Source: a virus
Virus record (IMG/VR): IMGVR_UViG_3300036985_005205
Location: 1 to 36,841 of that record
DNA length: 36,841 nt
Strand: one strand, 5' to 3'
Positions within the stretch are counted from its first letter, which is position 1; each line of letters starts with the position of its first letter. Positions 12,513 to 19,283 of this stretch are shown one piece after another. The notes below the pieces were generated by a model. The model had not been told where the DNA came from. It worked only from the letters and a program-made list of their open reading frames with translations, and searched no databases. The position numbers and the translations under genes are program-made.

Positions 12513-13175
12513 ATGGCGTGTGTATATAGACATATAAGAAAAGATTTAGATATTCCATTTTATATAGGAATAGGAAACAGCACTAAAAGGGCATATTCTA
12601 AAGCTAATAGAAACATTTATTGGAATAATATAATCAATAAAACTGACTATGAAGTAGAAATTCTGTTAGATGAAATAGAATATGAATATGCTAAAGAAAA
12701 AGAAATTGAATTTATATCTTTATATAAAAGAAAAATAGACGGAGGTATATTATGTAATATTACTTTAGGTGGAGATGGCTGTCTTGGATTGGTCCATACA
12801 GATGAGGCTAAACTTAAGATGAGCATTCCAAACAGAGGTAAAATTATCTCGGAAGAACAAAGACGTAAAGTATCTGAATTTAATAAAGGCAGAAAACACT
12901 CTGAAGAATCTAAAAAAAAAATGTCAAATAGTGCTTTAGGAGAAAAAAATCATTCTTACGGTAAAAAAGCATCTGAAGAAACAAAATTAAAAATGAAAGC
13001 GTCTGCTAATAGAGGAGAAAATAATTTATCTTCAAAATTAACTAATTCAGATGTTTTAGAAATTAGAAGATTATATAATGAAAAAATTAGTTCTAAAAAT
13101 TTGTCTAAAATTTTTAATGTAGCTAAAAGCAATATATTATCTATTGTTAATAGAAAAACTTGGAAACACATATAA
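12513..13175 (+). CDS. GIY-YIG homing endonuclease with NUMOD3 repeats and HTH (220 aa)
   Basis: A free-standing mobile endonuclease. The N-terminus carries a GIY-YIG domain: CVY at residues 3-5, FYIG at 16-19, Arg26 as candidate catalytic arginine, an acidic helix AKEKEIEFI (60-68) holding the metal-binding glutamate, and LCNITLGGDG at 80-89. Residues about 105-165 contain repeated GRKHSEESKKKM / GKKASEETKLKM units of the NUMOD3 DNA-binding type, and residues about 170-220 end in a helix-turn-helix (SSKNLSKIFNVAKSNI). This is the I-TevI-like layout seen in phage mobile genes. It starts at the base after the terL stop and ends three bases before the portal gene, so it interrupts the usual terL-portal order without breaking either gene. 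Confidence 0.9.
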   Translation: MACVYRHIRKDLDIPFYIGIGNSTKRAYSKANRNIYWNNIINKTDYEVEILLDEIEYEYAKEKEIEFISLYKRKIDGGILCNITLGGDGCLGLVHTDEAKLKMSIPNRGKIISEEQRRKVSEFNKGRKHSEESKKKMSNSALGEKNHSYGKKASEETKLKMKASANRGENNLSSKLTNSDVLEIRRLYNEKISSKNLSKIFNVAKSNILSIVNRKTWKHI

Positions 13176-15615: not shown

Positions 15616-15633
15616 ATGTAAAAAATTTTACAT
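15616..15633. promoter_or_regulatory. Palindrome overlapping putative promoter before scaffold gene
   Basis: ATGTAAAA and TTTTACAT form a perfect 8-base inverted repeat separated by two bases, just after the portal stop and sharing its last base with the following TAAATTTG box. A dyad at this place could be an operator for a repressor or activator, or a weak hairpin. There is no long U-tract directly after it, so it does not look like an intrinsic terminator. Confidence 0.35.
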
Positions 15634-15640
15634 AAATTTG
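15633..15640 (+). promoter_or_regulatory. Putative Bacteroidota promoter -7 element
   Basis: TAAATTTG fits TAnnTTTG and lies 32 bases before the scaffold ATG, nearly the same distance as at the promoter before 1730. It would drive the scaffold and major capsid genes, which need high expression. No matching -33 TTG was found at the normal spacing. Confidence 0.5.
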
Positions 15641-15672
15641 TAAAAAATTAAATTAAATTAAAATCAAATCAA

Positions 15673-16794: not shown

Positions 16795-18222
16795 ATGGCA
16801 AGTGCTTTATTATCTAACCCTACTTATGCATTACAACCGGCAGCGGAGCAAGTAGCGTTGCAAACAAACTATATTACCAACTTTAACTTTTTGAATCAGT
16901 ATCTTCCTGATACTTACGAAAAAGAGTTTGAAAGATATGGTAATAGAACCATCGCATCATTCTTAAGAATGGTAGGTGCTGAGATGCCTTCTAACTCTGA
17001 CCAAATCAAATGGGCAGAACAAGGACGTCTTCACATTAAGTACACTAGCTGTACTTCAAATGCAGCAGTTAACGCTAACACAGCAACTTTCACAGTAGCT
17101 GATGCAGGTGTTACTTACATCGCAATTAGAGTTGGACAAACTCTTATGATTCAAAACAACGCTTCAGGTGTTTTCAACAAAGCAATCGTTACTGTGGTTC
17201 CTTCAGCAACTACTTTCACAGTAGCTTACTACGAGGGCACAGGACAAGCATTTGCTGTTTCTACAGCTTGTACTGTATTCATTTACGGTTCTGAGTTCAA
17301 AAAAGGAACTACCGGAATGGTTGGTTCATTAGAAGCAGAAGACGAAATCTTCTCTAACAAGCCTATTATCTTGAAAGATAAATATGCTGTTAATGGGTCT
17401 GATATGGCTCAAATTGGATGGGTTGAAGTTACTACTGAAAACGGAGCTACAGGTTACTTGTGGTATTTGAAATCAGAGCACGAAACTCGTTTACGTTTTG
17501 AAGACTACATTGAAACTGCAATGATTGAAGCAGTTCCTGCTGCTGCAGGTTCAGGTGCTTTAGCTGCTTTAGGTGGTGTTGCAGGTGGTTCTGAAGGTAT
17601 CTTCTACGTTGTAAATAGTAGAGGTAACGTATGGGGTGGTGGTACACCAACTTCATTATCTGATTGGGATACAATTGTTTCTCGTTTGGACAAGCAAGGT
17701 GCTATCGAAGAAAACGTTGTGTTTGTTAACCGTGGATTGTCTTTCGACATCGACAATATGTTAGCAGGATTAAACGGATTTAGCACAACAACTCCTGCAA
17801 ATTCTGCATCTTTCGGTTTATTCGACAATGATGTTGAAATGGCATTAAACTTAGGTTTCACAGGATTCCGTAGAGGTTATGATTTCTACAAATCTGATTG
17901 GAAATACCTAAATGACCCAACTATGAGAGGTGGATTGAGCAATACTGCTGCTACTGCAACAGGCACAATCACAGGTCTTTTAGTTCCTGCAGGTTCTACA
18001 TCTGTGTATGACCAAATAATGGGTAAAAATGCAAAACGTCCTTTCTTACACGTAAGATACCGTGCTTCAGAAGCTGAAGACCGTAGATACAAAACGTGGA
18101 TTACAGGTTCTGCAGGTGGTGCTCAAACATCTGACTTAGATGCAATGGAGGTTAACTTCTTGTCTGAAAGATGTGTATGTACACTTGGTGCAAATAACTT
18201 CGTATTATTCCGTTTCGGTTAA
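16795..18222 (+). CDS. Major capsid protein (475 aa)
   Basis: The main shell protein, presumably with the HK97 fold. It follows the scaffold by 18 bases and has the expected size. The N-terminal part reads FNFLNQYLPDTYEKEFERYGNR near residues 31-51. Residues about 85-165 look like an inserted small beta domain (IRVGQTLMIQNN, then TTFTVAYYEG). A Gly/Ala-rich loop lies near 250-265. Codon choice differs from neighbours: AAC, TTC, ATC, TAC and CGT are frequent, as expected for the most highly expressed gene. The leader is AATTAATTAAA ending in ATGG without a Shine-Dalgarno sequence. It is followed by a strong hairpin. Identity rests on position, length and codon use plus recalled similarity to marine Bacteroidota phage capsids. 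Confidence 0.85.
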   Translation: MASALLSNPTYALQPAAEQVALQTNYITNFNFLNQYLPDTYEKEFERYGNRTIASFLRMVGAEMPSNSDQIKWAEQGRLHIKYTSCTSNAAVNANTATFTVADAGVTYIAIRVGQTLMIQNNASGVFNKAIVTVVPSATTFTVAYYEGTGQAFAVSTACTVFIYGSEFKKGTTGMVGSLEAEDEIFSNKPIILKDKYAVNGSDMAQIGWVEVTTENGATGYLWYLKSEHETRLRFEDYIETAMIEAVPAAAGSGALAALGGVAGGSEGIFYVVNSRGNVWGGGTPTSLSDWDTIVSRLDKQGAIEENVVFVNRGLSFDIDNMLAGLNGFSTTTPANSASFGLFDNDVEMALNLGFTGFRRGYDFYKSDWKYLNDPTMRGGLSNTAATATGTITGLLVPAGSTSVYDQIMGKNAKRPFLHVRYRASEAEDRRYKTWITGSAGGAQTSDLDAMEVNFLSERCVCTLGANNFVLFRFG

Positions 18223-18236
18223 TATATAAGGTTATA

Positions 18237-18268
18237 AGTTATGCCGCTCTTGATTGGGCGGCATAATT
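18237..18268 (+). terminator. Strong hairpin after the capsid gene (possible terminator or mRNA-end stabiliser)
   Basis: Starting 15 bases after the capsid stop, AGTTATGCCGCTC (18237-18249) pairs with GGGCGGCATAATT (18256-18268) around a 6-base loop, giving 13 pairs with two G-U wobbles and a G/C-rich core in an A/T-rich genome. Only a weak T-bearing stretch (CTAATTAT) follows, so it may terminate poorly and instead protect the 3' end of capsid mRNA or tune read-through. Confidence 0.6.
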
Positions 18269-18276
18269 CTAATTAT

Positions 18277-18401
18277 AGTTATAGAGTCGCTTAGGAGGGT
18301 TATTTTAGTGAGTAAATTCAAAAACTACCGAAGGGTAGGGAAAAAGTCACTTCTTTTTTTGTTTGAATTTTTAAATAATTCAAGTCTGAGGCTCTGTAAC
18401 T
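18277..18401 (+). ncRNA. Candidate structured RNA element between capsid gene and next gene
   Basis: This segment folds by hand into a closed three-way junction. AGTTATAGAG (18277-18286) pairs with CTCTGTAACT (18392-18401) over ten positions including one G-U; after a small internal loop, CTTAGG (18290-18295) pairs with TCTGAG (18385-18390). Inside are one arm closed by AGTGA/TCACT (18307-18311 with 18347-18351) and tipped by CTACC-GAAG-GGTAG (18325-18338), and a second arm TTTGAATT/AATTCAAG (18362-18369 with 18377-18384). AAATTCAAA at 18314-18322 could instead pair with TTTGAATTT at 18362-18370, so two folds compete. It lies in the 5' region of the 247-residue gene. I know no named family that matches; whether it is a cis-regulator or a separate RNA cannot be told. 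Confidence 0.4.
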
Positions 18402-18444: not shown

Positions 18445-19188
18445 ATGGCAACAACACCTTCAGTAAACAAAGTCTATAAATTAACAATAGGCAATCCGCT
18501 TTCATATAGCTTAGCGGCAAGAAATCATCCACGATTCCCTTTAATGTGGTATGATGAAAAAAAGAATGAAAATAGAGCTCTTAGATATGCAATAAATCAG
18601 AAATCTCCTTTTGAGGATGAACAAGACGGAAATGCTATTATTGAGCCAATTATGTTTGAGGACGGATTTTTAAGCGTTCCAAGAACAAATCCTGCACTTC
18701 AAGCTTTCTTACACTATCATCCTTTAAATGGAAGGATTTTTGTTGAGGTAGATGAAGAAAAAGATGCAGCCCACGAGGTTGAAGATTTAGATATTGAAAT
18801 TGATGCATTGGTTGAAGCAAGAAAACTTTCCCTTGAGCAAATTGAAACGCTTACAAGAGTTATGTTTGGTAAAGACCCTTCAACAATTTCAACAGCAGAA
18901 TTAAAACGAGATATTTTAGTGTTTGCTAAAAATGACCCAAGAGGATTCTTGACTACATTGAATGACCCTGAATTGCAATTCCAAGCAAAGATTCGTTTAT
19001 TCTTTGAAGAAAAATTATTAGCATTGCGCAACAACGATAAAGAGGTTTGGTTTAATACACCTACTAACAAGAAAAAAATGTTATCAGTACCATTTGGGGA
19101 AGACCCTTTTGATATGGCAGGATATTTCCTATCAAGCGATGATGGCATTGATTCTCTTAAAATGTTAGAGGCCAATATAGCCAAATAA
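18445..19188 (+). CDS. Conserved virion-associated protein after capsid (247 aa), function unknown
   Basis: A soluble protein with an N-terminal beta-rich half (VYKLTIGNPLSYSLAAR, residues 10-26; MFEDGFLSVPRTNP around 72-85) and a C-terminal helical half from about residue 105 containing STAELKRDILVFAKNDP and ending in a PFGEDPFDMAGYFLSSDDG segment. I recall proteins of this kind always beside the capsid gene in uncultured marine Bacteroidota phages, uncharacterised. Position between the capsid and ring proteins suggests head completion, a decoration role or an assembly factor. It is preceded by a repetitive AATTA leader and followed by an intrinsic terminator, so it closes the head transcription unit. 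Confidence 0.75.
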   Translation: MATTPSVNKVYKLTIGNPLSYSLAARNHPRFPLMWYDEKKNENRALRYAINQKSPFEDEQDGNAIIEPIMFEDGFLSVPRTNPALQAFLHYHPLNGRIFVEVDEEKDAAHEVEDLDIEIDALVEARKLSLEQIETLTRVMFGKDPSTISTAELKRDILVFAKNDPRGFLTTLNDPELQFQAKIRLFFEEKLLALRNNDKEVWFNTPTNKKKMLSVPFGEDPFDMAGYFLSSDDGIDSLKMLEANIAK

Positions 19189-19228
19189 ACTTTTATATTT
19201 AGGATTAGGGTGTCCCCGGTCGGAAATT

Positions 19229-19258
19229 AGCACAGATTTTATTTCTGTGCTTTTTTTT
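19229..19258 (+). terminator. Intrinsic (Rho-independent) terminator
   Basis: AGCACAGA (19229-19236) and TCTGTGCT (19244-19251) form a perfect 8-base stem with a 7-base loop, directly followed by a run of eight T (19251-19258, the first also the last stem base). It lies 40 bases after the stop of the 247-residue gene and just before a promoter-like box, dividing head genes from tail genes. Confidence 0.88.
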
Positions 19259-19261
19259 ATG

Positions 19262-19269
19262 TATATTTG
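19262..19269 (+). promoter_or_regulatory. Putative Bacteroidota promoter -7 element after terminator
   Basis: TATATTTG fits TAnnTTTG and starts three bases after the T-run of the terminator, 14 bases before the ATG at 19284. The expected -33 region would fall inside the terminator hairpin and carries no TTG. A very short leader would result. Confidence 0.5.
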
Positions 19270-19283
19270 TAAAAAGATTTAAA

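Follow-up and report, generated by a model that had tools for sequence, protein, structure and literature searches.

What occupies the unusually long gap downstream of the capsid gene in this phage, and what could it do for the genes on either side? We analysed the window, that is, the whole 36,841-nt stretch of virus record IMGVR_UViG_3300036985_005205, in which 222 nt separate the major capsid protein gene from the gene for a 247-aa protein; the median for relatives is approximately 82–85 nt, and most fall between 70 and 110 nt. The original prediction, made from the letters of the window, placed a possible new structured RNA at positions 18277–18401 and proposed that it alternates, switch-like, between two mutually exclusive folds. 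Among annotated viruses, those closest to the window are a Manatee Spring podovirus, Maribacter phage Panino, Flavobacterium Elemovirus phages, and Cellulophaga phages, and the window thus most likely derives from a phage of aquatic Flavobacteriia. The same gap contains one or two small open reading frames (ORFs) in other relatives (L120, L126, L133/L012, L035, L038, L040, L048, and L049); these are lysine/proline-rich, encode approximately 80–150 aa, and in many cases carry their own terminator-like hairpin, marking the spot as a hot spot for cassettes. The segment studied here is noncoding, as had been predicted: stops in every frame of all three homologous sequences described below rule out a coding role.

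We found that the fold of 18277–18401 is real. Each element named in the original prediction was recovered, at its proposed position, in the minimum free energy (MFE) structure. These consist of the outer stem (18277–18286 with 18392–18401), which extends to 18287/18391; its extension (18290–18295 with 18385–18390); and a three-way junction in which the CTACC hairpin and an A/T arm (P4 and P5 in Table 1) stand on a helix formed by 18313–18321 and 18363–18371. A further helix (18297–18305 with 18373–18381) lies between the extension and the junction helix. The energy of the segment, -37.1 kcal/mol, was reached by none of 200 dinucleotide shuffles (mean -22.8, sd 3.1; z = -4.64). Two neighboring features had not been part of the prediction: a strong hairpin just upstream, termed PA, and a U-tract at the 3′ end. 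Because the 13 pairs of PA adjoin the segment, the longer gap stretch that includes it folds with z = -6.4.

Using the capsid protein and the downstream protein as queries, we obtained 155 viral loci; 149 loci, the window among them, cover the gap. The same RNA occurs in two more distinct forms, both exactly at the capsid-downstream site: one in L092 (gap of 228 nt; near-identical copies in L398 and L399) and the other in L090, which equals L008 (gap of 273 nt). The remaining long gaps among relatives hold small reading frames and no such RNA. Identity over the RNA is 66% between the window and L092 and 93% between L092 and L090, and the three sequences share a common architecture of a basal helix P1, a helix P2, and a three-way junction of P3, P4, and P5. 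When they were aligned (alignment A2, Table 1), 93.8% of cells were paired, the tentative pseudoknot counted in. Base-pair covariation, which the original prediction had put forward as its test, was found: 13 pairs distributed over five helices have changed on both sides. Column-dealing shuffles gave a mean of 4.6 such pairs (0 of 500 as high), and slid partners gave 1–3. P4, for instance, reads TTGTC-GAAG-GGCAA in L092/L090, and the inner extension of P1 contributes no covariation evidence because its sequence is invariant. By RNAalifold the alignment has an energy of -37.4, whereas shuffling its columns gave -13.9 ± 3.1 (z = -7.5, 0 of 300). Since L092 and L090 are close kin, only about two well-separated sequences stand behind the covariation, and most of its signal comes from one comparison, that of the window with the L092/L090 pair.

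Table 1. Features of the capsid-downstream RNA and its surroundings in the window, with the corresponding helix columns of the three-sequence alignment A2
Feature	Position	Strand	A2 columns	Basis
-7 motif TAAATTTG(TAA), candidate promoter of the 367-aa gene/capsid operon	15633..15643	+		motif in 76/77 relatives
Major capsid (virion structural) protein gene, upstream neighbor	16795..18222	+		PHROG 13704, head and packaging, E 9e-105
PA, upstream hairpin, 13 pairs (18237–18249 with 18256–18268)	18237..18268	+		gap fold; no U-tract 3′ of PA
Main structured domain	18277..18401	+		z -4.64; covariation; matches of model R1
P1 5′ strand, partner 18391–18401	18277..18287	+	4–14/119–129	both-side changes in 5 pairs
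P1 inner extension CTTA, partner 18387–18390	18290..18293	+	17–20/115–118	sequence invariant
P2 5′ strand, partner 18373–18379	18299..18305	+	26–32/101–107	both-side change in 1 pair; 95% of cells paired
Possible pseudoknot strand AGTGA, partner P5 loop TCACT (18347–18351)	18307..18311	+		alignment
P3 5′ strand, partner 18363–18370	18314..18321	+	41–48/90–98	both-side changes in 4 pairs
P4 hairpin CTACC-GAAG-GGTAG	18325..18338	+	52–56/61–65	both-side changes in 2 pairs; loop invariant
P5 hairpin (18339–18346/18353–18360)	18339..18360	+	66–73/80–87	both-side change in 1 pair; loop ACTT invariant
P1 3′ strand, continuing straight into the U-tract	18391..18401	+		alignment
U-tract TTTTATT, directly 3′ of P1	18401..18407	+		sequence; TTTTT in L092, L090
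Downstream gene, 247 aa, conserved, function-unassigned	18445..19188	+		gap before start without promoter motif
Putative operon-closing terminator AGCACAGA-TTTTATT-TCTGTGCT-T7, then promoter motif TATATTTG	19229..19272	+		motif in 98/98 relatives

When each sequence was folded only as far as the U-tract, PA, P1, P3, P4, and P5 appeared in the MFE structure of all three; confidence in P2 and in the inner extension of P1 is lower for L090 and L092, and the base of P1 in L092 has three poorly paired positions beside the U-tract. The junction and loop segments CGCTTA, AGT, GAAG, ACTTC, and TCTGAGG are invariant among these few sequences. L092 and L090 also have a hairpin at the position of PA, with a different sequence. 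The segment TTCCTAATTAGGAA, which lies between PA and P1 in these two loci (L092:3773–3840, L090:3728–3840), could form a hairpin that would compete with bases of PA and P1; its counterpart in the window is weak. On this comparative evidence, the segment is a conserved structured RNA and genuinely functional, as the retention of its pairs by matching mutations argues.

The proposed switch fared differently. AATTCAA is indeed duplicated in the window; the alternative pairing of its second copy with TTGAATT, on which two exclusive folds would depend, is not conserved. This helix has 13 of 21 cells paired, seven of them the window's own; of its seven pairs, four are lost in L092 and L090 alike, and shuffles often equal that result. 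We therefore reject the switch pairing, and two exclusive folds are not supported.

The RNA appears to belong to no described family. At the gathering score, none of 4227 Rfam families matched anywhere in the window, and a permissive search returned chance-level matches on the window gap and none on the L092 and L090 RNA. ARAGORN found no tRNA or tmRNA in the window. Comparison by blastn of the gap with phages, and of the L092 RNA with phages and plasmids, gave no real match, and a literature search limited to open-licence papers turned up no account of an RNA like it. A covariance model of the RNA, R1, matches L092, L090, L008, and L396–L399 at 150–152 bits and the known carriers as a whole at 138–152 bits; among approximately 370 collected loci it found nothing above background beyond the known carriers, and across 40 whole virus records it matched those of L008 and L092 alone. 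DNA-pattern scans of the whole viral collection, together with a single scan of bacterial genomes, returned only known carriers (L396–L399) or coincidences, the latter including L423, L424, and L428–L437; most of the loci from these scans were checked with R1. Given the lack of an Rfam match and of a published description, the RNA family is, as far as tested, new and rare, and the claim of a new structured RNA holds, with one fold in three diverged sequences, both-side changes, and alignment energy in its favor. The prediction had also looked to close relatives for the element. Covariation and energy favor the structure, whereas most close relatives lack it and have a plain terminator instead.

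In a phylogeny built from the 247-aa gene, the carriers fall inside one well-supported clade of 17 rows, yet they do not group together: the window is basal, and L008/L092 are nested among lineages with plain terminators. At least two changes are forced on this tree as a result. Over the RNA, the window and L092 are 66–70% identical, close to the 68% at third codon positions of the neighboring gene. These data fit better with an old resident of the clade that was repeatedly lost, or with recombination between kin, than with separate distant imports. When the gene content of the carriers G001 and G002 was set against that of the non-carriers G022, G024, and G029, no clear carrier-specific partner protein emerged; the candidates that carriers alone share are small proteins of unknown function and a large protein with local similarity. 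The window additionally encodes a free-standing homing endonuclease (12513–13175; NUMOD3, PHROG 314) between terminase and portal, of which a 78% identical homologue occurs in the non-carrier G022 and none in G001 or G002, and a phage lysozyme (724–1218; PF00959) with a homologue in none of five compared relatives.

The relatives' gaps indicate what usually stands at this site. Under a simple rule, 110 of the 115 distinct gap sequences from relatives have a terminator-like hairpin followed by a T-run; the five that failed are L092, L090, and three gaps whose hairpins are unusual in tail or loop. The window passes the rule via PA alone, the tail of which is no real U-tract. In carriers, the terminator is replaced by PA and the domain with the flanks kept (TATATAGTAAA... 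and ...AAATTAAATTAAAT), and the terminator stems CAGAGCC/GGCTCTG of L082 and L097 much resemble AGAGTC/GGCTCT in P1 of the window. TAnnTTTG is the Bacteroidetes-type -7 promoter motif. Nearly every gap on either side has it (76 of 77 ahead of the 367-aa gene and 98 of 98 behind the 247-aa gene), but only 4 of the 115 capsid gaps do, and the window's own capsid-downstream gap lacks it. Since the flanking gaps have a promoter motif and the capsid gap has none, the site resembles a built-in attenuator. The simplest reading is a single operon that comprises the 367-aa gene, the capsid gene, an attenuating terminator, the 247-aa gene, and a terminator (19229–19251), with the next promoter motif at 19262. 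Within that last gap (19189–19283), the terminator AGCACAGA...TCTGTGC-T7/8 is near-invariant and TATATTTG follows immediately 3′; many relatives, though not all, have a small hairpin, GGATTGGGGTGTCCCCGGTCGGAAATTAGC, ahead of it.

A conserved fold thus stands in a terminator's place within a probable operon, its gap free of a promoter motif and its P1 helix abutting a U-tract. Our preferred reading, held tentatively and at somewhat less than even confidence, is that it serves as a cis-acting structured attenuator or 3′-end element of the capsid operon, one that may respond to a factor and protect mRNA. Transcription would start at the 15633 motif before the 367-aa gene and run through the capsid gene. 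In nearly all relatives, the simple terminator would pass only some polymerases into the 247-aa gene, so that capsid mRNA would exceed downstream mRNA. In the window phage, PA and a prefolded three-way-junction domain (P2–P5) take the place of the simple hairpin. Because P1 ends directly in the U-tract, it would act as the terminator stem and the domain as its loop, the prefolded P2–P5 joining the two P1 strands. The folded domain would then set how often P1 forms in time, perhaps in response to a protein or ligand, and the element would shield the 3′ end of the capsid mRNA. Such an RNA would terminate or attenuate transcription, stabilize the capsid message, respond to a factor, and probably tune the output of the next gene. 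Several features count against an attenuator. The U-tracts are modest (TTTTATT and TTTTT), the imperfect P1 base next to the U-tract of L092 would make for a weaker terminator, and the domain is absent in most relatives. A helix of approximately 11 pairs with an apex of approximately 100 nt is moreover a non-standard terminator, in place of a short-loop, G+C-rich stem of at least 5–6 pairs, and standard terminator scans did not report P1; its U-tract does lie directly 3′ of the stem in all three sequences. More speculatively, and in our view doubtfully, the element could define an undescribed class of flavobacterial-phage regulatory RNA, with a folded sensor domain in the loop of a capsid-operon terminator through which a phage or host factor would set how much capsid is made relative to downstream protein as virions assemble.

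Other readings of the same structure must be weighed against an attenuator. The domain could belong to the 247-aa gene as a 5′ leader, riboswitch-like or protein-binding, in which P2–P5 binds a ligand or phage protein and switches termination or translation. The compact three-way junction with its invariant junction and loop segments would suit such a role, as would the terminal helix with its U-tract, a location 43 nt before the start codon, and the possible loop–junction pseudoknot AGTGA/TCACT. The pseudoknot, however, has five pairs in the window and retains three of five in all relatives, with no covariation among the three sequences; the invariance of segments comes from few sequences; the switch pairing is not conserved; and close relatives without the RNA have a highly similar downstream protein. 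We regard this reading as unlikely. Slightly less likely still is a trans-acting small RNA of approximately 170 nt, made up of PA and the domain, that is released from the capsid mRNA's 3′ UTR by cleavage or termination and acts on host or phage targets or a protein. A stable terminator-like 3′ end, no coding overlap, and a sporadic presence typical of accessory functions speak for it, and a gap without a promoter motif and mostly short unpaired segments against it.

The put RNA of phage HK022 and the EAR are cis-acting structured processive antiterminator RNAs. An RNA of this type (put of HK022, EAR of Bacillus) would modify polymerase as a nascent transcript and bypass the terminator after the 247-aa gene, which lies downstream as such a model would have it; the two modules, a hairpin and a large domain, and the loss of the usual capsid terminator in carriers also accord with it. 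Read-through there seems unnecessary, however, because the gap behind the 247-aa gene has a promoter motif of its own in 98 of 98 relatives, and the U-tract adjoins P1; we consider antitermination improbable. A remnant of a mobile element, or a guide RNA of, for example, the TnpB/IscB type, inserted in the terminator would account for the scattering of carriers on the tree and for a location in a hot spot for small-gene cassettes. The IS605-orfB-II RNA (RF02998) even aligned end to end over 18262–18389 in the permissive search, but its score of 12.5 bits falls short of the gathering score of 88, and its E value of 9.8 is at chance level. No similar sequence exists elsewhere in carrier genomes or the collected loci, and the divergence matches that of third codon positions in the neighboring gene, as in resident sequence, making this origin highly improbable. 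Chance folding is hardly credible at all: the region is A/T-rich and the sequences number about two once the kinship of L092 and L090 is allowed for, but the energies (z = -4.6 and -6.4; alignment z = -7.5) and the 13 both-side changes, against 4.6 in shuffles and at most 3 with slid partners, refute it in practice.

The element is a covariation-backed RNA without an Rfam match, set in a phage late operon at a point where relatives rely on a plain terminator of attenuator-like character. Because some lineages have the element and others lack it, while their capsid and downstream proteins are approximately 90% identical, they constitute a natural experiment on capsid stoichiometry, and a responsive element would mean that virion assembly involves a regulated terminator. 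The mechanism is one that we infer; the likely role, that of a structured attenuator, is of a known kind. Compared in general terms with put and EAR, the element is likewise a structured cis RNA within a transcription unit that has lost a terminator, but it matches no Rfam family, ends in a U-tract, and precedes a downstream unit with its own promoter motif. It resembles riboswitches and structured leaders with terminator platforms in its compact junction, its invariant loops and joins upstream of a gene, and its helix with a U-tract; unlike riboswitches, it matches no Rfam family, does not conserve a switch pairing, and sits 3′ of a capsid gene in a late operon. It differs from intrinsic terminators and intra-operonic attenuators in having a three-way-junction domain in place of a loop and an extra hairpin upstream, so that terminator rules miss it. 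It is like them in lying between two genes of a probable operon, in a helix that abuts a U-tract, and in standing where nearly all relatives have an intrinsic terminator.
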